64,000 bases of DNA from contig NZ_JYNX01000058.1 in assembly GCF_001044255.1 (NCBI RefSeq), positions 107,566-171,565 of the forward strand. The letters are read 5' to 3'. The translations under genes were made by a program, and so were the position numbers. This DNA comes from Mycolicibacterium chubuense. Lineage in GTDB: Bacteria; Actinomycetota; Actinomycetes; Mycobacteriales; Mycobacteriaceae. The notes beneath the pieces were generated by a model that saw only the letters and a list, made by a program, of their open reading frames with translations, did no database searches and was not told where the DNA came from. Shown one piece after another: positions 682 to 12,389 of the stretch (its first letter is position 1; each line of letters begins with the position of its first letter).

Positions 682-1797
682 ATGACCCAGAACTCCAACC
701 TCGCGGCCTTGAGTGCCGCAGGGGTGTCCGTATGGCTCGACGATCTGTCCCGCGAACGACTGCAGTCGGGCAACCTGAAAAACCTGATCAACACCCGCAG
801 CGTCGTCGGCGTCACCACCAACCCGTCGATCTTCCAGGCGGCGCTGTCCGAGGGCGACGCCTACGACGCGCAGGTCAAGGAACTGGCCGAGCGGGGCAGC
901 GACGTCGAGGCGACCGTCCGCGCCGTCACCACCGACGACGTGCGCGACGCGTGCGACCTGCTGACCGAGACACACGAGGCCACCGACGGCGTGGACGGCC
1001 GGGTGTCCATCGAAGTCGATCCGCGGCTGGCCCACGATGCGGACAAGACGATCGCCGAGGCGATCGAGCTGTGGAAGATCGTCGACCGGCCCAACCTACT
1101 CATCAAGATTCCGGCGATGGAGGACGGCCTGCCCGCCATCACCGCCGTGATCGCCGAGGGCATCTCGGTCAACGTCACCCTGATCTTCTCCGTCGAGCGT
1201 TACCGCCTGGTCATGGACGCCTATCTGGCAGGCCTGGAGAAGGCCAGGGAGGCCGGCCGCGACCTGTCCCGGATCCATTCCGTCGCCTCGTTCTTCGTGT
1301 CGCGTGTCGACGGCGAGATCGACAAGCGACTGGAGGTCCTCGGCACCGACGAAGCCCTGGATCTGCGCGGGCGGGCGGCAGTGGCCAACGCGCGCCTGGC
1401 CTACGGCGCCTACCAGGAAGTGTTCGAGGTCGGAGATCGCTTCGCCGCGCTGGCCGCCGACGGCGCCCGCCCACAGCGCCCGCTGTGGGCGTCGACCGGT
1501 GTGAAGAATCCGGACTACTCCGACACCCTGTACGTGACCGAACTGGTCGCCCGCGGCACCGTCAACACCATGCCGGAAAAGACACTCGACGCCGTCGCGG
1601 ACCACGGCGACGTCACCGGCGACACCATCGCGGGCACCACGCGCGACGCGGGAACCGTGTTCGACCGGCTCGACACGATCGGCATCGACCTCACCGATGT
1701 CTTCCTCACCCTGGAGAACGAGGGCGTCGACAAGTTCAAGAAGTCCTGGCAGGAACTGCTCGAGACCACCGAGACCCAATTGCACGCCGCGACCTGA
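682..1797 (+). CDS. tal: Transaldolase
   Basis: Transaldolase exchanges a three-carbon unit between sedoheptulose-7-phosphate and glyceraldehyde-3-phosphate in the non-oxidative pentose phosphate pathway. The product is 371 residues, the size of the actinobacterial TalB-type enzyme. The N-terminal GVTTNPSIF motif is present, and the Schiff-base lysine lies in the LIKIPA motif (about K142). The ATG lies eight bases after the tkt stop, so this is a tkt-tal operon. In mycobacteria I know, zwf and opcA follow tal; here the next gene is a GIY-YIG-type protein, so the usual pentose phosphate cluster ends early. Confidence 0.96.
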
Positions 1798-1855
1798 GGA
1801 GCGAGCCGCATCACGGGTCACGAAGCCGCCCGCGAGAACGATTAGGCTGTCGGAC

Positions 1856-2488
1856 ATGGCTGGATCGATGTCGGAGAAGCGAACCGCGGAGATCGTAGCG
1901 AAATTTGTTACGGCACAACGCTTCACACGCGAAGAGGTGTTCTCCGAGTCAGATCCCGTTCCCGCGCAGGCGGGTGCGCACGGATGGTGGTTCCGTGAAA
2001 TCCCCGGCAATATCGACGTCTCCGGGTGCGAAGAGCGCGATGGCTGGACGCTGCTCTACGTGGGAGTGAGCCCCGGCCCGCCGCGCGCCGACGGTAAACC
2101 GCAGACCCCGCAGGATCTCCGCAAACGCATCCGCTACCACTTCGGTGCGGGCAACGCCGGTGCCGACGGTTCGACGCTGCGCAAATCGTTGGGGGTGCTG
2201 CTCGGCAGCGAACTGGGTTTCGCGCTGCGCCGGGTCGGTTCCGGTAAGCGCCAGACCTTCGCCGGCGGTGAAGCGATCCTGACCCGATGGATGGCCGAGA
2301 ACGCCACAGTGTCGTGGGTGCTGCACCCGGAGCCCTGGCACCTCGAAGCGAAATTGATCAAAGCGCTCCAATTGCCCTTGAACTTTCAGGACAACGAGCG
2401 CAACGCCTTCGCCCCCGAGTTGAAGAGGCTGCGCCGGGAGGCGGGGGTCAAAGCGGGCAAGATGCGGGTGCTCGCCGAGTGGTCCTGA
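1856..2488 (+). CDS. GIY-YIG nuclease family protein
   Basis: This 210-residue protein has a segment that reads like a GIY-YIG fold: GWTLLYVGVSPG near residue 60 (the strand with the first Tyr and Gly), then LRKRIRYHFG with a conserved arginine-rich helix, then a C-terminal helical region. GIY-YIG domains cut DNA in repair and mobile-element enzymes, but stand-alone versions like this one are not characterised. I chose the ATG at 1856 rather than the longer frame, because the upstream extension overlaps tal; a second ATG lies four codons later. It sits about 60 bases after tal on the same strand. No signal peptide or membrane segment is visible. Confidence 0.6.
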   Translation: MAGSMSEKRTAEIVAKFVTAQRFTREEVFSESDPVPAQAGAHGWWFREIPGNIDVSGCEERDGWTLLYVGVSPGPPRADGKPQTPQDLRKRIRYHFGAGNAGADGSTLRKSLGVLLGSELGFALRRVGSGKRQTFAGGEAILTRWMAENATVSWVLHPEPWHLEAKLIKALQLPLNFQDNERNAFAPELKRLRREAGVKAGKMRVLAEWS

Positions 2489-3890: not shown

Positions 3891-5468
3891 ATGAGGCCGC
3901 AGGGCCGGGAACGCAGCCAAGCCACCTTGCCGGACTGGCGGGTGGTAGCCGCGGGCGGAGCCGTGTTCTCGATGCTCGTCGTCGTGGGCGGCGGCGGAGC
4001 CGTCGCCTATGCCGACACTGGAACCGGCACGTCGAACGCGACCGACTCAGTCAGCCACGACAGCTCCCAGAACACTGACCGCTCCGACAGCACGTCGACG
4101 CGGCGATCGGCCACGACAGTCGAGACCTCACAGACAGAGACCGAGGCAAGGGAAACCGACGCCGCCGAGAGTTCCGAGACATCTCGGCTCACCAGTGCCG
4201 AGGAACAACTCGACCAGGTGGAGTCACCGGCTGGCGATACGCCTACCGCAACGGACAGCACGGCGGATTCCTCGCCTCCAGTGCACGACGATCCGTCGCT
4301 CGAGAACAGCCCGACAACCGACCCCAGCCCACCCGCGCAAGACAACTCTCCTGCGACCGAGGTCGATTCCCCTCCAGATCCGCCGGCCACCACGCCGGAC
4401 ACGCCGACCGTCCCGGGCGAAGACAACCCGACCACCGACCCGACTCCACCGGTTCAGGACACCGGATCTACCACGGGGGCCAGTTCTTCGACACCCGAGG
4501 CGAATTCGTCCTCAGGGTCGACTCCGCCGGCGCCCGCGATCGCAGTAGCCACGGTGACAGACGACTCCACGGCGGGCACCACCACAGACCCGGTCAGCAC
4601 GGTCACCGCGAGTGACCCTGCGCCCGCCGCCGATCCCACGCCCGTCGCCAGTGTCACTTCCGCCGTGGAGACTGTCGCCGCCGCCCTCGATCAGCCTTCT
4701 CTACCCGCTGTTGAGCCGAGTGTCGTTGCACCCGTTGTTGTTACCGCGGTTCCCATGACGGTATCCCTCGTCCCGGGAACGGTGGCCGCACCGCCCGGCA
4801 TACTGCAGTGGTTCGTCCTGTTGACGTGGTTTCAGCTTCAGTGGCTGATGCAGTGGCAACAGCAGCTGGGCGGGTCGGGCGCGACACCCGTGCTGAATCG
4901 CTTCGACGCCAGAGACACCCGGGTGATGGGCACGGTATTCCAAAACCCCTCCACGACGGCGTTTCTCGCGACGCAACTTCCGTGGCTGACAACGACATTG
5001 GGCGCTCTTCAGGGGATGCCGATGTCCGCTCTTCAGGCAATGCAACTGGGCGACCTGGAGATCGATCAGGACATGCTGCACAGGATGTCGATGACATTGG
5101 CGGCCGAAACGTCGTCGCTGCCCGCGATCGCACAAGCACTCACCGATCAGGCGCATTCTCGCCTGGGGCTTCTGGGCTCTCCCTGCGTCGGCACGTTCAT
5201 CCGCAACGTGTCGGTGTGGGCACTGTTCACCGCTGCCGCCCTCGGGCTTCTCGGCCTGACCAGCCTGACCGGCCTCGGGACCTTGGTCGGCTTCCGCCAG
5301 GCGAAGGCGGGCTACGCGCTTTACGCATCCGGCCTGGCCCGGTTCACCGGACCCGGTCCACTGGGCGTCGTCCGTGAAGCGGGATTCGTACGCATCGGGT
5401 CGCGACGCCCGAAGGATGGACCGCCGCGCCTGCGCGTCACCGGAACGGATCTGCGCGACAGCGCCTGA
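3891..5468 (+). CDS. Ser/Thr/Pro-rich membrane protein of unknown function
   Basis: This 525-residue protein has an N-terminal hydrophobic signal-anchor (about residues 15-38), then roughly 230 residues dominated by Thr, Ser, Pro, Asp and Glu with repeated DPSPP/DNP-type motifs, as in cell-wall-spanning or glycosylated linkers. A tryptophan- and glutamine-rich helix follows (around LQWFVLLTWFQLQW), and near residues 440-470 a hydrophobic segment rich in Leu/Gly (ALGLLGLTSLTGLGTLVG), ending in a basic tail. It starts 41 bases after the EspR-like stop; a TTG at 3846 overlapping that stop would give 15 more residues. I recognise no domain. Its position suggests co-transcription with the regulator. 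Confidence 0.55.
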   Translation: MRPQGRERSQATLPDWRVVAAGGAVFSMLVVVGGGGAVAYADTGTGTSNATDSVSHDSSQNTDRSDSTSTRRSATTVETSQTETEARETDAAESSETSRLTSAEEQLDQVESPAGDTPTATDSTADSSPPVHDDPSLENSPTTDPSPPAQDNSPATEVDSPPDPPATTPDTPTVPGEDNPTTDPTPPVQDTGSTTGASSSTPEANSSSGSTPPAPAIAVATVTDDSTAGTTTDPVSTVTASDPAPAADPTPVASVTSAVETVAAALDQPSLPAVEPSVVAPVVVTAVPMTVSLVPGTVAAPPGILQWFVLLTWFQLQWLMQWQQQLGGSGATPVLNRFDARDTRVMGTVFQNPSTTAFLATQLPWLTTTLGALQGMPMSALQAMQLGDLEIDQDMLHRMSMTLAAETSSLPAIAQALTDQAHSRLGLLGSPCVGTFIRNVSVWALFTAAALGLLGLTSLTGLGTLVGFRQAKAGYALYASGLARFTGPGPLGVVREAGFVRIGSRRPKDGPPRLRVTGTDLRDSA

Positions 5469-5563: not shown

Positions 5564-5604
5564 GTGCCCCCAGTCGGACTCGAACCGACACTGGGCGGAT
5601 TTTA
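5564..5604. repeat. Left 41-bp attachment repeat (tRNA-Leu 3' fragment)
   Basis: The 41 bases are identical to 12315-12355 and correspond to the tRNA-Leu T-arm, variable region and 3' half of the anticodon arm on the minus strand. The sequence diverges right after the anticodon-loop bases, so this is a remnant and not a functional tRNA gene. Confidence 0.93.
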
Positions 5605-5868
5605 TGTAAAGCTAGGCCGCTATTCGCGACCAGCCCGAACTGTTCGTTGCAGGCCCTGTAACCGCTGATCAAGGGCCGGTATCGGTACGGGTCCGGGTCG
5701 CCTAGAGTCCGCCCTCGGTAGGCCCCCGGTCGCCGGGGTGACGCCGGGGTAGCACGCGTTGCCACCTGTTAGCTAGGGGGCGACACGCGATATAACCTCC
5801 GTGGCGGACTTCCAACTCTCAGGGCAGCGCGCGGGCATACTGGGCGTACCAGCCAGGCTTGAGCCTCG
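5605..5868. other. Non-coding left end of the element
   Basis: No convincing gene lies here. It holds the tandem 11-bp repeats at 5731-5750, a 10-bp motif at 5768-5777 shared with the right end, and a possible -10 hexamer TATAAC at 5791-5796 that could drive the DUF262 gene. A short open frame at 5801-5986 lacks any support. Confidence 0.5.
5731..5777. repeat. Candidate integrase arm-type sites, left end
   Basis: CGCCGGGGT occurs twice (5731-5739 and 5742-5750) with an 11-base period, followed by GTTAGCTAGG at 5768-5777. The same tandem pair with the same 11-base period, and the same 10-mer, occur near the other end (12196-12256), in reversed order relative to the attachment core. That symmetry suggests integrase arm binding sites; this is inference. 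Confidence 0.5.
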
Positions 5869-7008
5869 GTGGCAGCGCGAAAGGTTTCGGGGACGTCATT
5901 GGCCCATCAAGAGGACATTCGTAAATCGTCGCGTAGTTCCGCAAGAGACCGTGAAATTGCGAAGCGCTTCGAGGACGCTCAAGTAAGTCTTGTGCTGCAA
6001 TCATCAGATCTGTCACTCGAATCTGTCTCGCAGATGGTCGAAACTAGCGCCATCGACGTCAAACCAGAATTTCAACGACGAGACCGGTGGACACAGGCGC
6101 AGTCCTCTGCGCTCATCGAGTCGTTTCTACTGAACATTCCGGTGCCGCCCGTCTACCTCGCCGAGGAACAATTCGGCCGATACTCTGTAATTGACGGGAA
6201 ACAGCGCATCACATCCATAAATCAATTCATGTCCAATACGCTTGCGTTGACAAATCTTTCTCGATTCGAAGAAATCGAGGGTAAGCGGTTTCTGGAGCTG
6301 CCTGACGAACTTGCCAACGCTCTGCGTGTGCGACCGTATATCCGCGTGGTGACATTGCTACGTCAATCAGATCCAGAAACAAAATACGAAGTATTTCATC
6401 GCCTCAATTCCGGCGGGGAAGCATTAAACGCTCAAGAAATTCGTAACGTGTTATACAGGGGAGCATTCAACGATCTTCTTCAGCGGCTCGCAGAAAACAA
6501 CTTTTTGCGCAACCGACTGAAGATTACCACCACCCGTTCTCCAGCGTTTAAAGCAATGCAAGATGTCGAATACGTTCTTCGATTCTTCACCGTCGATGCA
6601 TACTGGCGCGACTTCAGCGGTGACTTCAGGAAGTCAATGAATTCGTACATGCGCGCCCATCGCGATCCAGACGAGAAGTTTCTGTCAGAAAAGGAGAGTC
6701 AGTTTGTGAGGGCCCTCGCAGCCTGCGAGAGCATCTTCGGGCGTCATGCGTTCCAGAGATTCGAGCGAGGCCAGTGGCGGAACCAAATGCTTAGTGGCCT
6801 CTATGACGCTCAGATGATCGCCGTAAGTTCGATGTCGGATTATCAGCTTTCAACGGTGATCCGCAACCGCGAAAAGATGATAGCCCGTTACAAAGATCTC
6901 TTCGACGACGAAGACTTCAACGCTGCGATTAGGACCGGAACCAATACGCCGAGGCGCCTTACGTATCGTATTATGCGAACAATCGAGTGCCTCAGCGATT
7001 TCGCTTAG
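5869..7008 (+). CDS. DUF262 (ParB/GmrS-like) protein, partner of HEPN gene
   Basis: The 379-residue product has the DUF262 signature: FQRRDRW (residues 68-74), the helix SALIESFLLNIPVPPVYL (about 79-96), then DGKQR (109-113), the catalytic-type motif of the ParB-like fold, and later FHRLNSGG with QEIRN (about 177-196). DUF262 domains form the nucleotide-hydrolysing half of GmrSD-type restriction systems and occur in many defence islands. There is no DUF1524 HNH nuclease domain, so this is not a complete GmrSD; the nuclease role may fall to the HEPN protein encoded 20 bases downstream. The GTG start at 5869 has no strong ribosome binding site, so it is uncertain. Codons are much richer in A and T than in the surrounding genes, indicating separate acquisition. 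Confidence 0.82.
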   Translation: MAARKVSGTSLAHQEDIRKSSRSSARDREIAKRFEDAQVSLVLQSSDLSLESVSQMVETSAIDVKPEFQRRDRWTQAQSSALIESFLLNIPVPPVYLAEEQFGRYSVIDGKQRITSINQFMSNTLALTNLSRFEEIEGKRFLELPDELANALRVRPYIRVVTLLRQSDPETKYEVFHRLNSGGEALNAQEIRNVLYRGAFNDLLQRLAENNFLRNRLKITTTRSPAFKAMQDVEYVLRFFTVDAYWRDFSGDFRKSMNSYMRAHRDPDEKFLSEKESQFVRALAACESIFGRHAFQRFERGQWRNQMLSGLYDAQMIAVSSMSDYQLSTVIRNREKMIARYKDLFDDEDFNAAIRTGTNTPRRLTYRIMRTIECLSDFA

Positions 7009-7028
7009 CAAACAGGTCGACCAAAACG

Positions 7029-7973
7029 ATGCCTGGCGCGCGTGACGAGTTTCTGGACAATATTGTCGGCATACGCGATGCCGCTAATTCTGCACCTCTG
7101 CAGAGTCTCGCCCCTCTTGCCTCTAACAGAAGCGCAAATAAGATGGCCGATCTGTTGCGAAGGGGTCTCTACGTTGTGGCCTTCAACGCTATGGAAGACT
7201 ATTTAAAGAGCCGCGCCAGCGAGCATTTTAATAATCTTCCGTTGGTCTCGTCGCTGGATTTTGATGATCTGCCCCCTGGCCTCCGCAAGGCGGCTGTTAT
7301 TGACGCCATAAAGAACGGCGTTCGCGAAGCGGGCTATGATAAGAGCAACGAAATTCAGATAATCCGTGCCGTGGCGGGAGCAGTAGCTAGTACTGCTAAT
7401 AGGCAGCAGTACGGCATTCACGAGTATTCGGTTCTGAGAAGCGGCTCGAACATATCTGCCGACGACATCGGAGCAGCGATAGGCAGGCTGCACCTCGATC
7501 GTCCATGGGATCAGATGCAAAGCCTGCTCGACACCGTTGGAAACGTAGGGTCACCGATTAGAGGCCGCTTCTCGACTTGCCTTGTTAAGCGTAATGCTGC
7601 AGCACATGATGGACAGCCAGTCGACTACACCGATCTAGTGGAGATCGCGGATTTGGCGACTGCGCTCTGTTTCGCGTTCGATGTAATTTTCAGCGCTGGG
7701 ATGACCCGAATCGCCGACAATGTTCCGACGGCTGACACCGACACGCGCGTCCAACTTGCCGGCAACATTGTCGTGCGCTACGTCGCTGAGCGGGGAAACC
7801 GATGGTGCAGGCTTAACCAGAATAAGCAACCCTTTCGTTATTTCGCGTCAAGGACCGACGCCGTCAGAAACGCTCTTCGCAATCTGCAGCCTCAAGGCGT
7901 AGTTGCAGTTCTGGGCGCAAGAGGCGAGATAATTGGTTGGCACCTCGCCGACCTACGACATCCACATCCATGA
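7029..7973 (+). CDS. HEPN-domain putative ribonuclease
   Basis: The 314-residue protein carries the HEPN ribonuclease motif R-X4-H as RNAAAH (R188 to H193), preceded by helices and followed by DLVEIADLATALCFAFD, as expected for the final HEPN helix. Near the N-terminus, LLRRGLYVVAFNAMEDYLKSR resembles the first helix of RiboL-PSP/MAE_28990-type HEPN proteins; I cannot fix the subfamily. The C-terminal 80 residues look like a separate small beta-rich domain. HEPN proteins typically cut RNA in abortive-infection or toxin systems. The ATG at 7029 is 20 bases after the DUF262 stop; a GTG at 6987 would overlap that gene. Base composition is as low in GC as its partner's. It is convergent with the integrase, three bases away. 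Confidence 0.75.
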   Translation: MPGARDEFLDNIVGIRDAANSAPLQSLAPLASNRSANKMADLLRRGLYVVAFNAMEDYLKSRASEHFNNLPLVSSLDFDDLPPGLRKAAVIDAIKNGVREAGYDKSNEIQIIRAVAGAVASTANRQQYGIHEYSVLRSGSNISADDIGAAIGRLHLDRPWDQMQSLLDTVGNVGSPIRGRFSTCLVKRNAAAHDGQPVDYTDLVEIADLATALCFAFDVIFSAGMTRIADNVPTADTDTRVQLAGNIVVRYVAERGNRWCRLNQNKQPFRYFASRTDAVRNALRNLQPQGVVAVLGARGEIIGWHLADLRHPHP

Positions 7974-7976
7974 TGC

Positions 7977-9384
7977 CTAGCCCTCCCGCCGCAGCGGCAC
8001 CACATTGCTCGCCTCGGCCCGCTGAACAGGCGCGGGTGGCTCGGGCAGAGTGTTGGCCGCTCCACCATCCTGCTCCGGGATATAGTCGCCGTAGACGTCG
8101 AGCGTGAGCGTGTAGGTACTGTGCCCCAACCACTTTGACACCTGCATAAGGTGCGTGCCCGCCGAGAGCTGGAGGACCGCGAACGTATGCCGGAGGTCGT
8201 GGAGGCGTACGCCCCGAGTAGCGGGCGCATCCTTCGTCGCGGGGCGGCTCGCGGGTAGGCCGACCGCCTCCAGGGCTGGCTTGAGGATCGTGTCGTAGAA
8301 GGTTCCGAGCGCGAGCGGCTGGGACCAGTCGAGCGGTACCGCGTACCGCTCCCCTGCCGGGCGGTATCCGCCCCCGTTCTTCCGCGAAGGCCAGAGGGGC
8401 GCGGTCGGTTCGTCCGCGCGGGGGTGGTCGGTCGCGAGGTAGTCGGCCATCCGTCGAGCGAGCCAGGGCGGGAGAGGCACGGTTCGGCGGCTGCGCTTGC
8501 TCTTCGGGGTGCCGACGACCCAGACACCATTCTTTCGGTCCTTCGTCCGCGCGACCCGCACCGAGCACGTCGGTCCCGGCCCGAATCGAAGGTCAGCGAC
8601 CTCCAGCCCTGCGGCCTCAGCGGCCCGTAGGCCTGTGTACGCGAGGAACTCGACCAGAAGCCCGCACACCGGGTACGCAGGGAGTTCTGGGCCGTCGTAG
8701 CCCTCGGGCGGGTAACCCGAGACCGCCGCGCTCAGCGCGCCGACTTCTGCGGTCGTGAGCGGGTGGTGTTCGAACTCGGCGTGGTCGCCGGTCGCCCGGC
8801 TCGCAGAGAAGTCCACCCGGTCCGCAGGGTTCGCGTCGAGCGCGCCGTGCTGGACGGCGTAGCGGAGCACCCGACGCACGACATCCCAGACATGCTTGAC
8901 GGTGCCGGGGGTGATCGGCTTCTTGTCGCCCTGGCGAGATTGTTGGCGTACCAGGGCGGTTAACAGCTTCTCCAGATGGGCCGGCGTGACTGCCGCGACC
9001 GCGAGACTGCCTAGCTCGCCGAGCACATAGGTGTGTAGCTGGCGTTCGTACTCGTCCACCGTGCGCTGCTTTACCTTGCCGCTGGCGACCCGAACGGCCT
9101 GCGCGTCGAGCCAGGCCCGCGCGTAAAAGCCAAACGGCTGCTCCCCTTGGCCCTCTGGTCGGCCAGGGCGCTGGTGCCCGCGTGGGTGTGCTTCGCAGCG
9201 TTGAGTTCGTCGCGGCGCGCTTCTGCGGCATCGCGGGTCGAGTAGCTCTCCTGCCGCGCTCGTGTGCGCCCGGTTGGTAGACCGAACTCGTCACGAACGG
9301 GCTCGCGCCAGACGACCTCGTATCGCTTCGCGATCTTGCCGTTGCGTCGCTGCCTAGTTTCATGGGCACGTACGTGTATGCCAT
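7977..9384 (-). pseudogene. Tyrosine integrase, interrupted by two frameshifts
   Basis: The catalytic part (7977 to about 9140) is a phage-type tyrosine recombinase with a SAM-like core-binding domain, the first catalytic Arg in TGLRAAEAAGL, HDLRHTFA with the His-X-X-Arg, and the nucleophile region WLGHSTYTLTLDVYGD. Upstream, in a second frame, lies an arm DNA-binding domain (around VRAHETRQRRNGKIAKRYEVVW, ending near ALADQRA). The only plausible start (ATG at 9384, MAYTYV) is in a third frame. One base seems lost near 9143-9146, in a run of four G (minus strand), and a second shift lies near 9374. As it stands no full-length protein can be made unless frameshifting or sequencing error is invoked. 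The gene would be the last of a leftward operon with overlapping starts. Confidence 0.8.
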
Positions 9385-9392
9385 TGCTACTC

Positions 9393-9605
9393 TTACGCTT
9401 CCCAGCGGTTGCCGACTTCGGCGGACCGTAATTCTTCGGTGATGTACTCGCCTGTCTCGCCGCCGCCGAACTCGACAACGTGAACCATGTCGCCCGCGTC
9501 GTTGTAGCTGCTGACCACACGGCCCTGCTGCCGGTTTCTCGGGTCGCCGGACAACGCCACGCGAACTCGCGTGCCGCGCTTGTAGTAGTCGTGGTCCGCG
9601 TTCAT
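9393..9605 (-). CDS. Small KOW-like protein of the element
   Basis: The 70-residue product contains RGTRVRVALSGDPRNRQQGRVVS, which looks like a small SH3/KOW-type beta barrel, followed by a strand VHVVEFGGGETGEYI and an acidic helix end. Its ATG overlaps the stop of the preceding small gene by four bases (ATGA), indicating translational coupling. The integrase start lies eight bases downstream. Function unknown; in a tRNA-linked element of this kind it could be a recombination accessory or DNA-binding protein, but nothing proves that. Confidence 0.6.
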   Translation of the reverse strand: MNADHDYYKRGTRVRVALSGDPRNRQQGRVVSSYNDAGDMVHVVEFGGGETGEYITEELRSAEVGNRWEA

Positions 9606-9841
9606 CGTTCGTGCCTAATTCGGCGCATGTGCGCCTGGTTGCGCCGGGATGGGTCGCCGCCGGGCTTCCGCCACGACCGACGCCGTGGCTTGGTCGACTT
9701 CGGCGGGCTGGGGTGCTGAGCCGGTTTGACCAATTCACAGCCAAGGCGGTCTGCTGCGTGCTGCGGATTGTCCTCAGCCCAGCGCCAGTACGCAGCGGCA
9801 CGAACCTCCTGCATGTCGGCCTCGGTGAGTTGTACGATCAT
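9602..9841 (-). CDS. Small basic protein of the element
   Basis: The 79-residue product has an N-terminal helical part (TEADMQEVRAAAYWRWAEDN) and a very basic Pro/Lys/Arg tail (KSTKPRRRSWRKPGG), suggesting nucleic-acid binding. The ATG at 9841 overlaps the serine recombinase stop by four bases (ATGA), and its own stop overlaps the next start in the same way. I do not recognise a family. The longer frame that starts upstream within the recombinase gene is not supported. Confidence 0.55.
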   Translation of the reverse strand: MIVQLTEADMQEVRAAAYWRWAEDNPQHAADRLGCELVKPAQHPSPPKSTKPRRRSWRKPGGDPSRRNQAHMRRIRHER

Positions 9842-10518
9842 GCTGTCTTCTCCATTTCGGTTGTAGCGGTCGCAGATTGGTAGATGCGGCGCACGGTTGA
9901 CGACTGCCAGTTGGGCCGGCCAGCGGGCGACAGGATGCATTCGGCCTCAAGCGCGTTGGCGATTCTGGCGTAGCTCAAGCCAGCTTGGCGGTCCATGACG
10001 ATTCGACGCAGGAGGCCCGCGTGCACCAGGCGTGGTCGGCCGATCCGCTCGCCGCGTGCTCGCTTGGCCGCGAGTGCCGCCTTGGTCCGCTCACTGATCA
10101 GCTCGCGCTCGTATTGGGCGTAATTCACCAGATTCATTGCGAACATGCGGCCGGCTGCGGTGGTCAGGTCGACGCCGAGGTCGAGCAGAACCAGCGACCA
10201 GCCTTGCTTCTGGGCACATTCGATGATCGTGGCCGCATGGATGATCGACCGGGACAGTCGGTCTAGCTTCGCAACGATCAACCCCTCGCCTTGACCTAAT
10301 GCCAAGAGCTCAAGCGCCTCAGCCAGTTTGGGGTTGATGTTCTTGCCGCTGCCGCCCTCGTCGGCAAAGTGCTCGACATCCCAGCCGCGCCGTTTGGCTT
10401 CAGCGTCGATCGCGGCGCGTTGCGCTTCGAGCCCGTTGCGTTTGTCTGCCTGGTCCTCAGTGCTGACGCGCGTGTACGCAAACATCAACGGCCGCAGGCA
10501 ATTCGCGTTCCCAGTCAT
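9838..10518 (-). CDS. Serine recombinase (resolvase/invertase family)
   Basis: The 226-residue protein has the resolvase catalytic domain: AYTRVSTEDQ with the nucleophilic serine near residue 18, then LIVAKLDRLSRSI with the conserved Arg pair, and YERELISERTKAALAAKRARGERIGRPR leading into a short C-terminal helix-turn-helix. The size fits small resolvases or invertases rather than large phage serine integrases. The ATG at 10518 follows GAGAAG; a TTG at 10548 and an ATG at 10485 are alternatives. A 13-bp palindrome lies just upstream. It heads a four-gene leftward operon with two small genes and the tyrosine integrase, so the element carries both recombinase classes. Confidence 0.85.
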   Translation of the reverse strand: MTGNANCLRPLMFAYTRVSTEDQADKRNGLEAQRAAIDAEAKRRGWDVEHFADEGGSGKNINPKLAEALELLALGQGEGLIVAKLDRLSRSIIHAATIIECAQKQGWSLVLLDLGVDLTTAAGRMFAMNLVNYAQYERELISERTKAALAAKRARGERIGRPRLVHAGLLRRIVMDRQAGLSYARIANALEAECILSPAGRPNWQSSTVRRIYQSATATTEMEKTA

Positions 10519-10548
10519 TCGCTTCTCTGCTTTCTTCCCGGGGCTCAA

Positions 10549-11526: not shown

Positions 11527-11979
11527 CTATTCGCCGCGATCACGAGCACCGCGGAACAGGTCAGCGTTCTCAGGGGTCAACCAGTACTCCGCTAGCTCGC
11601 CGTCTGGGTACGCAAAAGACCACAGCCATTCTCGATTTACTGCGTGGCAGTGTCGCCCCGGCCACCCGAGCAATCCGGCGACACCGTGCTTGCCATTGGA
11701 GATGTCGAGCAAGTCGGCAAGGTCTTGCCCGCTAAATCGTTGGCCAGGATTGTCAATGAGGATTGAGAACAGTCGCTTCGCGGGTTCGCTTAGCCGACCC
11801 CAAACTTCCGCTGCCAATTCCTCATCCACGCTAGACCACGATTTGAGGTCGCGATCGGTCGACGCCGCAACGACTGTCGCGGTTTCTGCGGGCTCACCGT
11901 TCAACCACGCGCCGTACATCTGATAGAAGTCCGCAACGCGTTCTTCGGGAACCTTCACCGTCATGTCGATCATTGCCAT
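11527..11979 (-). CDS. DUF6416-type protein
   Basis: The 150-residue product starts with a beta-strand-like MTVKVPEERVADFYQMYGAWL, then EVWGRLSEPAKRLFSILIDNPGQRFSGQDLADLLD, which looks like a winged-helix DNA-binding segment, and ends with a conserved-looking GVAGLLGWPGRHCHAV and YWLTPENADLF. Proteins of this type (DUF6416, as I recall) are common in actinobacterial phages and integrated elements; their role is unknown, possibly regulatory. Several ATGs cluster at the start; the one at 11979 lies four bases after AAGGGAG. Direct repeats TTGAGATA, placed 21 bases apart, lie just upstream and may be its operator. Confidence 0.6.
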   Translation of the reverse strand: MAMIDMTVKVPEERVADFYQMYGAWLNGEPAETATVVAASTDRDLKSWSSVDEELAAEVWGRLSEPAKRLFSILIDNPGQRFSGQDLADLLDISNGKHGVAGLLGWPGRHCHAVNREWLWSFAYPDGELAEYWLTPENADLFRGARDRGE

Positions 11980-12018
11980 CATTCTCCCTTTCGAGTTCTG
12001 GAGCCCCGCCGACTCCGG

Positions 12019-12073
12019 TTGAGATAAGTCTGACACCCGTTGAGATACCTGTCAAGGGGTTTGAGATATCTCA
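12019..12073. promoter_or_regulatory. Three TTGAGATA direct repeats, 21 bases apart
   Basis: TTGAGATA occurs at 12019, 12040 and 12061, exactly 21 bases apart, so all three face the same side of the helix. The last copy is part of the perfect 12-bp palindrome TGAGATATCTCA (12062-12073). On the minus strand a TTGACA hexamer (12050-12055) lies between copies two and three. The array sits 40 bases upstream of the DUF6416-type gene and reads as an operator for the element's leftward transcription. Confidence 0.55.
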
Positions 12074-12314: not shown

Positions 12315-12355
12315 GTGCCCCCAGTCGGACTCGAACCGACACTGGGCGGATTTTA
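12315..12355. repeat. Right 41-bp attachment repeat, inside tRNA-Leu
   Basis: Identical to 5564-5604. It spans from one base beyond the tRNA 3' end up to the anticodon loop, so integration regenerates a complete tRNA gene here. The crossover must lie within these 41 bases. Confidence 0.93.
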
Positions 12356-12389
12356 AGTCCGCTGCCTCTGCCAATTGGGCTATGGGGGC
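12316..12389 (-). tRNA. tRNA-Leu (anticodon UAA)
   Basis: The 74-base minus-strand gene folds into a full cloverleaf: acceptor stem GCCCCCA/TGGGGGC, D arm, anticodon stem GCGGA/TCCGC with loop CTTAAAA (anticodon UAA at positions 34-36), a five-base variable loop and T arm GTCGG-TTCGAGT-CCGAC, with discriminator A. CCA is not encoded. The variable loop is short for a leucine tRNA, but the anticodon is unambiguous. It is the target of the element on its 3' side. Confidence 0.93.

Follow-up and report, generated by a model that had tools for sequence, protein, structure and literature searches.

A DUF262-HEPN gene pair on a tRNA-Leu element of Mycolicibacterium chubuense looks like a somewhat unusual member of a recognised anti-phage pairing

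The survey of Anantharaman et al. 2013 lists RiboL-PSP-HEPN as an 'operon with ParB' and the MAE_28990 HEPN as 'in operon with a ParB nuclease and DNA methylase genes' (PMC3710099). We infer that the 'ParB' of those two rows is of the DUF262 type; both kinds of operon would then hold the same pairing as the locus described here, the MAE_28990 row with a DNA methylase besides. For restriction-linked HEPN RNases, the same authors propose reversible inhibition followed by release, as in PrrC (PMC3710099). A 2023 review lists the PD-T4-2 system under both DUF262 and HEPN PF18735 (PMC10952713), and PD-T4-2 confers protection from T4 on E. coli K-12 as well as on the strain it comes from (Vassallo et al. 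2022, PMC9519451). GmrSD, BrxU, and SspE are given in that review as DUF262 with DUF1524. BrxU and GmrSD are described there as nucleotide-dependent nucleases of modified DNA, and in SspE modified DNA, once recognised, sets off the DUF262 NTPase, which then activates a nuclease domain (PMC10952713). The original prediction for our locus, made from its letters alone, had called the combination little-described; with the pairing listed in both the survey (PMC3710099) and the review (PMC10952713), that description is not supported. Among the literature matches listed, no paper was devoted to the mechanism of DUF262-HEPN pairs.

The gene pair studied here looks like a somewhat unusual member of this recognised anti-phage pairing, not a new kind of system. 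It lies in a stretch of 64,000 nucleotides from M. chubuense (hereafter the window), to which all coordinates refer unless another contig is named. The two genes and their landmarks are as follows.

5869-7008, plus strand: DUF262 / GmrSD_N protein, 379 aa, proposed sensor NTPase (Pfam PF03235, 4.6e-25)
6193-6207, plus strand: DGKQR codons, residues 109-113, proposed nucleotide-binding motif (conserved in pair members)
7029-7973, plus strand: HEPN protein, 314 aa, proposed RNase effector (PF18735 at 1.6e-4, below cut-off; clade hhalign)
7590-7607, plus strand: R188-N-A-A-A-H193 codons, HEPN catalytic motif (conservation across pairs)
7731-7970, plus strand: extension of about 80 aa at the HEPN C-terminus, common to a six-member clade (alignments)

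The window thus holds a GmrSD_N protein with DGxQR and, adjacent to it, a HEPN protein with R-X4-H, as expected of a DUF262-HEPN operon. The two genes lie 20 bases apart on the same strand, and the coordinates, strand, order, and gap originally given for them were all correct. Particular to the window pair are its extension-bearing clade of six members, its location at a tRNA-Leu hotspot, and a HEPN half missed by the PADLOC profiles. Neither the tRNA-Leu carriage nor the C-terminal extension is mentioned in the survey's passages on such operons (PMC3710099).

The upstream protein belongs to the DUF262 family. Its GmrSD_N score exceeds the Pfam cut-off, and no other Pfam family matched the 379-aa protein at E values up to 1. 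The DGKQR motif, predicted to be intact, is so at residues 109-113. Across an alignment of 88 pair members, the D, G, Q, and R of DGxQR are each present in 88 of 88, and the third position is variable (Q in 33, L in 19, K in 17). A profile of the DUF262 alignment found four DUF262 chains in the PDB; the single window sequence as query found no solved structure.

The downstream protein is assigned to the HEPN fold on sequence profiles. An alternative upstream GTG start at 6987 would give a protein of 328 aa, and alignment with relatives favours the start at 7029. R188 and H193 form the sole R-X4-H within the 314-aa protein. Such a motif alone is weak evidence, because 49% of 2000 shuffled copies of the window HEPN contain one; the real evidence is its conservation. 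Over 88 aligned partners, R188 and H193 are each kept in 87 and E56 in 85, and the spacing from R to H is exactly four residues in all 87 rows that have both. The sole row without R-X4-H is a short partner (L005, 167 aa) that ends ahead of the motif. The window HEPN matches HEPN_RiboL-PSP (PF18735) below the Pfam cut-off, and its clade mate L014 exceeds the Pfam HEPN cut-off. Two further clade mates (L013 and L015) matched no HEPN model in Pfam at E 0.1, which counts against the reading we prefer. In hhalign, a profile of the six-sequence window clade nonetheless matches one built from 21 other HEPN partners (probability 98.5, E 1.8e-15), with R and H in register along 214 aligned columns. Most of the 59 HEPN partners scanned match HEPN_RiboL-PSP (55) and HEPN_MAE_28990 (46) at E <= 0.01. 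Alignment A5 comprised the window and 58 of the 68 listed HEPNs, those left out being mostly short, and alignment A8 comprised 21 HEPNs hand-picked from A5. HEPN profiles found nothing convincing among solved structures. With the motif kept in 87 of 88 partners and the clade profile matching, the earlier call of a 314-residue HEPN protein with intact R188 and H193 is upheld.

The window pair resembles PD-T4-2 in its DUF262 half. Its DUF262 protein matches PD-T4-2_A at 4.7e-44, though NsnA is the stronger match (3.4e-78). The PD-T4-2_B profile (PDLC04028, 168 positions) had no match at E <= 1 in the window genome or in eight further genomes or records that carry the pair, and it matched 3 of 14 control genomes. 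When 59 HEPN partners were scanned with PADLOC, the weak and scattered matches fell into 15 families, each in at most two partners and the best with E 0.0011, and PD-T4-2_B was not one of these families; the window HEPN had no PADLOC match at E <= 1. Since the B profile is absent, PD-T4-2 can be no more than a distant analogue as far as the HEPN half is concerned, a comparison made with the profile. Strict membership was rejected at component B, and the looser statement that the pair works like PD-T4-2 was kept.

A second likeness is to the system with the NsnA, NsnB, and NsnC names, which we take to be Menshen. Each of the seven DUF262 proteins scanned, the window's included, has NsnA as its top PADLOC match. 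The three-gene Menshen arrangement is illustrated by a Pantoea locus (L133), where NsnA, NsnB, and NsnC match at 1.7e-111, 4.8e-102, and 1.1e-80, respectively. At the window, no NsnB lies within 8 kb of the pair; the NsnB profile has 36 matches in the window genome (best 4.2e-7) and matches 14 of 14 control genomes. Menshen identity was rejected, as the next gene is HEPN and NsnB is not beside the pair. Because the B profile is absent and the partner matches are weak, we place the window pair with the DUF262-HEPN kind, propose that it works like PD-T4-2, and do not assign it to Menshen.

The pair is also distinct from GmrSD-type systems, with which it shares the DUF262 domain and DGxQR. No DUF1524 or HNH domain is fused to the window DUF262 protein (Pfam) or encoded next to it, the downstream neighbours being the HEPN and integrase genes. 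In place of the nuclease of type IV GmrSD, the window has a HEPN protein.

DUF262 and HEPN genes form a real unit, as seen from their adjacency across loci and their co-evolution. Ten DUF262 proteins served as seeds: the window's, one relative, and eight plasmid or phage hits picked before their neighbours were seen. Among 111 distinct related DUF262 proteins, the window's included, 89 have a HEPN gene directly downstream. All 89 pairs are on the same strand, with a median gap of -1 base, and 86 are within 50 bases. HEPN was called at E < 0.05 with an HMM trained on the loci of this analysis, one of the 89 (L055) being weak; for three of the 22 negatives (L022, L067, and L075), the contig stops at the DUF262 gene or shortly beyond it. 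Pairwise distances of DUF262 and HEPN correlate at r = 0.85 over 88 pairs, and none of 2000 permutations exceeded 0.074. The two genes had been expected to be neighbours elsewhere, and they are.

Adjacency varies with the source of the sequences. On viral contigs, where the ten seeds found 270 relatives and the best 80 were kept, a HEPN partner accompanies 68 of the 73 distinct DUF262 proteins. A search of the order with the window DUF262 protein alone matched 27 of 298 genomes, the window's own included, and 11 of its 28 further DUF262 proteins have a HEPN partner, a proportion that counts against the preferred reading. HEPN follows 10 of the 14 best further matches of that search versus 1 of the 14 weakest. 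From 171 plasmid and 26 phage records with matches, 16 matches were opened. All eight of the first picks have a HEPN-like partner, L005 included, as do five of the next eight (L135 split over two frames); the other three are the Menshen locus L133, a locus with an unassigned partner (L132), and one that meets the record end (L134). Overall, the pair recurs on phages as well as on plasmids and tRNA elements.

Close relatives of the window HEPN itself are few. Of 100 genomes, 60 from the genus and 40 from the order, 2 contain this HEPN, and the window's own genome is one of the two. No close relative was found by tblastn in the phage and plasmid collections, or in viral contigs with the window HEPN or a two-sequence DUF262 alignment as query; one was found in genome contigs. 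The closest pair, from the same genus (G008), has protein identities of 65% for HEPN and 73% for DUF262, and its DUF262 protein (L003) is identical to that of a Mycobacterium MAG (L012). Third codon positions hold 240 of 384 and 207 of 346 differences between the pair's two genes and this relative. This is in line with purifying selection acting on both genes; because dS is saturated, no dN/dS ratio is given.

We infer, with a probability of about two in three, that the pair is a two-gene anti-invader module carried as cargo of the tRNA-Leu element, in which DUF262 senses invading DNA and releases a HEPN RNase. The DUF262 protein, a ParB/Srx-like NTPase, would bind nucleotide and act as both sensor and switch. 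It would recognise a state of the invading DNA, most likely modification or its absence. Until then, HEPN would be kept inactive together with DUF262; upon recognition it would be released and cut RNA with R188 and H193. This scheme applies to the window pair what is described for SspE (PMC10952713) and proposed for restriction-linked HEPN RNases (PMC3710099). Growth of the infected cell would stop as a consequence of this cutting, and phage resistance would be the presumed outcome.

A tight two-gene operon with co-evolution, carried on mobile elements, would also be expected of a toxin-antitoxin pair that stabilises its element, with HEPN as the toxin, DUF262 as the antitoxin by which it is blocked or modified, and defence against phage as a secondary effect; one genome of the order (G158), where the two genes alone make up a 2.27-kb unit between direct repeats, points the same way. 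We regard this explanation as rather unlikely. The HEPN/MNT-type motif with its acceptor tyrosine is R-X4-H-X-Y. The place of the tyrosine is taken by G in the window and by Y in only 2 of 87 rows (L030 and L049), and DUF262 elsewhere in the family pairs with HNH and ATPase partners. An AMPylation site in the HEPN/MNT style was accordingly rejected, the window not being among those two rows. We retain the reading of a sensor that releases an RNase.

The effector beside this DUF262 family varies. Four of its proteins (L018, L022, L096, and L120) have an HNH-like C-terminal stretch, recognised by eye and confirmed by Pfam in one. An NsnB-type ATPase lies downstream of three others, and these NsnB-bearing DUF262 proteins cluster together in the DUF262 tree. 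On that tree, the HEPN label needs 7 changes versus a mean of 16.1 in shuffles. It had been predicted that an RNase fold takes the nuclease's place here, which agrees with the variation among HEPN, HNH fusion, and NsnB-type ATPase. Such partner exchange fits a sensor role for DUF262 and would also be compatible with an antitoxin-like role.

The window genome has two more DUF262 genes on another contig (G000, C19), about 7 kb apart at 99198-100148 and 106584-107270 (L139 and L161). One is a 504-aa DUF262-HNH fusion, and the other lies within a 752-aa open frame; this region is possibly a separate defence island.

Some pairs have a DNA methyltransferase nearby. One was found in the flank of 12 of 89 pairs; the queries came from five of these 12 loci, and seven are independent finds. 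In eight (L008, L011, L065, L074, L076, L078, L084, and L092), it is of the cytosine type, six being convergent with the pair and two (L084 and L092) five bases upstream. The close cytosine methyltransferases suggest three-gene restriction-like sets. The other four pairs have other types, and that of L010 is 1.2 kb off, beside a separate restriction gene. None of the 22 HEPN-negative loci has a methyltransferase, although their flanks are mostly shorter and they make no fair control. Some pairs therefore resemble parts of restriction-modification sets, and the window pair does not: no methyltransferase was found among the scanned ORFs of its element, which lends modification sensing no direct support there.

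These neighbours bear on a restriction-like explanation, in which DUF262 itself would cut or nick DNA in a type IV-like manner and HEPN would be a back-up suicide effector. The methyltransferases flanking 12 pairs, the place of DUF262 in the GmrSD_N family, and the survey's 'ParB nuclease' beside the MAE_28990 HEPN (PMC3710099) agree with it. GmrSD_N is, however, the only Pfam family in the 379-aa protein, and the HNH-like nuclease, where present in the family, is a separate C-terminal addition. We consider direct cutting by DUF262 improbable, and continue with DUF262 as the sensor.

The pair lies within a tRNA-integrated element, as originally predicted. Its boundaries and recombination genes are listed below.

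5564-5607, strand not applicable: outer attachment repeat, a partial 44-bp copy of the tRNA-Leu 3' end (98% identical to 12315-12358)
7977-9059, minus strand: tyrosine integrase, catalytic part (Pfam Phage_integrase 3.4e-09; PHROG integrase 1.5e-42)
9838-10548, minus strand: serine recombinase (resolvase-like) inside the element (Pfam Resolvase 2e-35)
12315-12389, minus strand: tRNA-Leu(taa), intact integration target, whose 3' end at 12315-12358 is the inner attachment repeat (ARAGORN)

The element spans about 6.75 kb between the 44-bp repeats. The integrase gene is convergent with the HEPN gene, with 3 bases between them, and G+C is 0.50-0.57 over the pair versus 0.62-0.71 in the 2-3 kb on either side. 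The same attachment copy is present in the Mycobacterium MAG (L012), where it lies at 4521-4567 of that locus, some 250 bp ahead of the pair, with 97.9% identity across 47 bp; the MAG also matches the integrase end of the window element. A stretch resembling the N-terminal arm of the integrase (9071-9520, minus strand) is in a different frame from the catalytic part, and the integrase may therefore be split. Also inside the element is a DUF6416 protein (11527-12036, minus strand; Pfam 2.1e-23), and upstream, outside it, is a GIY-YIG domain protein (1697-2488, plus strand; Pfam 5.6e-31).

The tRNA-Leu(taa) site is a recurrent integration hotspot in the genus, as judged from its sequence in other genomes. 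The region was matched in 96 of 98 genomes of the genus, and in at least 12 other genomes the full copy is accompanied by another, partial copy of the tRNA 3' end, lying on the same strand of that contig at a distance of about 3-16 kb (among the matches listed: G006, G019, G026, G027, G037, G053, G175, G354, G358, G359, G367, and G372).

Decaying or inert cargo without function would agree with the rarity of the HEPN near home (2 of 100 genomes, one the window's own) and with an integrase that appears to read in two frames. Yet both pair genes are intact with every conserved motif present, and differences from a relative with 65% (HEPN) and 73% (DUF262) protein identity are biased to third positions. 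That the pair is inert is very improbable, and a working anti-invader module remains our reading.

The window pair belongs to a small clade. On a tree of 106 DUF262 proteins (a quick search with no bootstrap; 6 of the 111 proteins, with < 110 bits, were left out and L133 was added), the window falls in a set of six rows with SH-aLRT 100, every row with HEPN. Nearest to it are five rows: L003 (identical to L012), the viral contigs L013-L015, and L094 from a genome of the order. HEPN proteins of this clade are 308-316 aa long, the window's being 314 from the 7029 start, and their C-terminal extension has one invariant tryptophan. The extension fragments of all six had no Pfam match above cut-off. 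A suspicion, formed by eye, that the extension is DUF2188 was rejected on the same ground; DUF2188 had no match in the window genome and was found in 1 of 21 genomes in all.

In the genome of L094 (G158, contig C7; L138:5685-8095), the DUF262-HEPN pair alone is the 2.27-kb unit between 100-bp direct repeats. The repeats are 99% identical, with a further 39 nt at 82%, and duplicate the beginning of a MerR/TipAS regulator gene. Inside the unit, no ORF for a recombinase was seen.

We suggest only tentatively that the window clade is a distinct variant, with a C-terminal recognition or regulatory domain of about 80 aa, without a methyltransferase, and travelling as a minimal mobile unit (as in G158, or as tRNA-Leu cargo). 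If so, the C-terminal domain would set the RNA target or the trigger, and DUF262 would be a general sensor module that takes HEPN, HNH, or OLD-like ATPase effectors.

As PADLOC gives the HEPN half no proper match, annotation will probably overlook such systems or record them as partial Menshen or PD-T4-2. Yet the pairs are common on phage-like contigs, where 68 of the 73 distinct DUF262 proteins among the best relatives kept are paired, and the bare pair is small and easily tested. If DUF262 does work with interchangeable effectors, one recognition module would be common to type IV restriction (HNH/DUF1524), Menshen (ATPase), and the RNA-cutting HEPN suicide systems.
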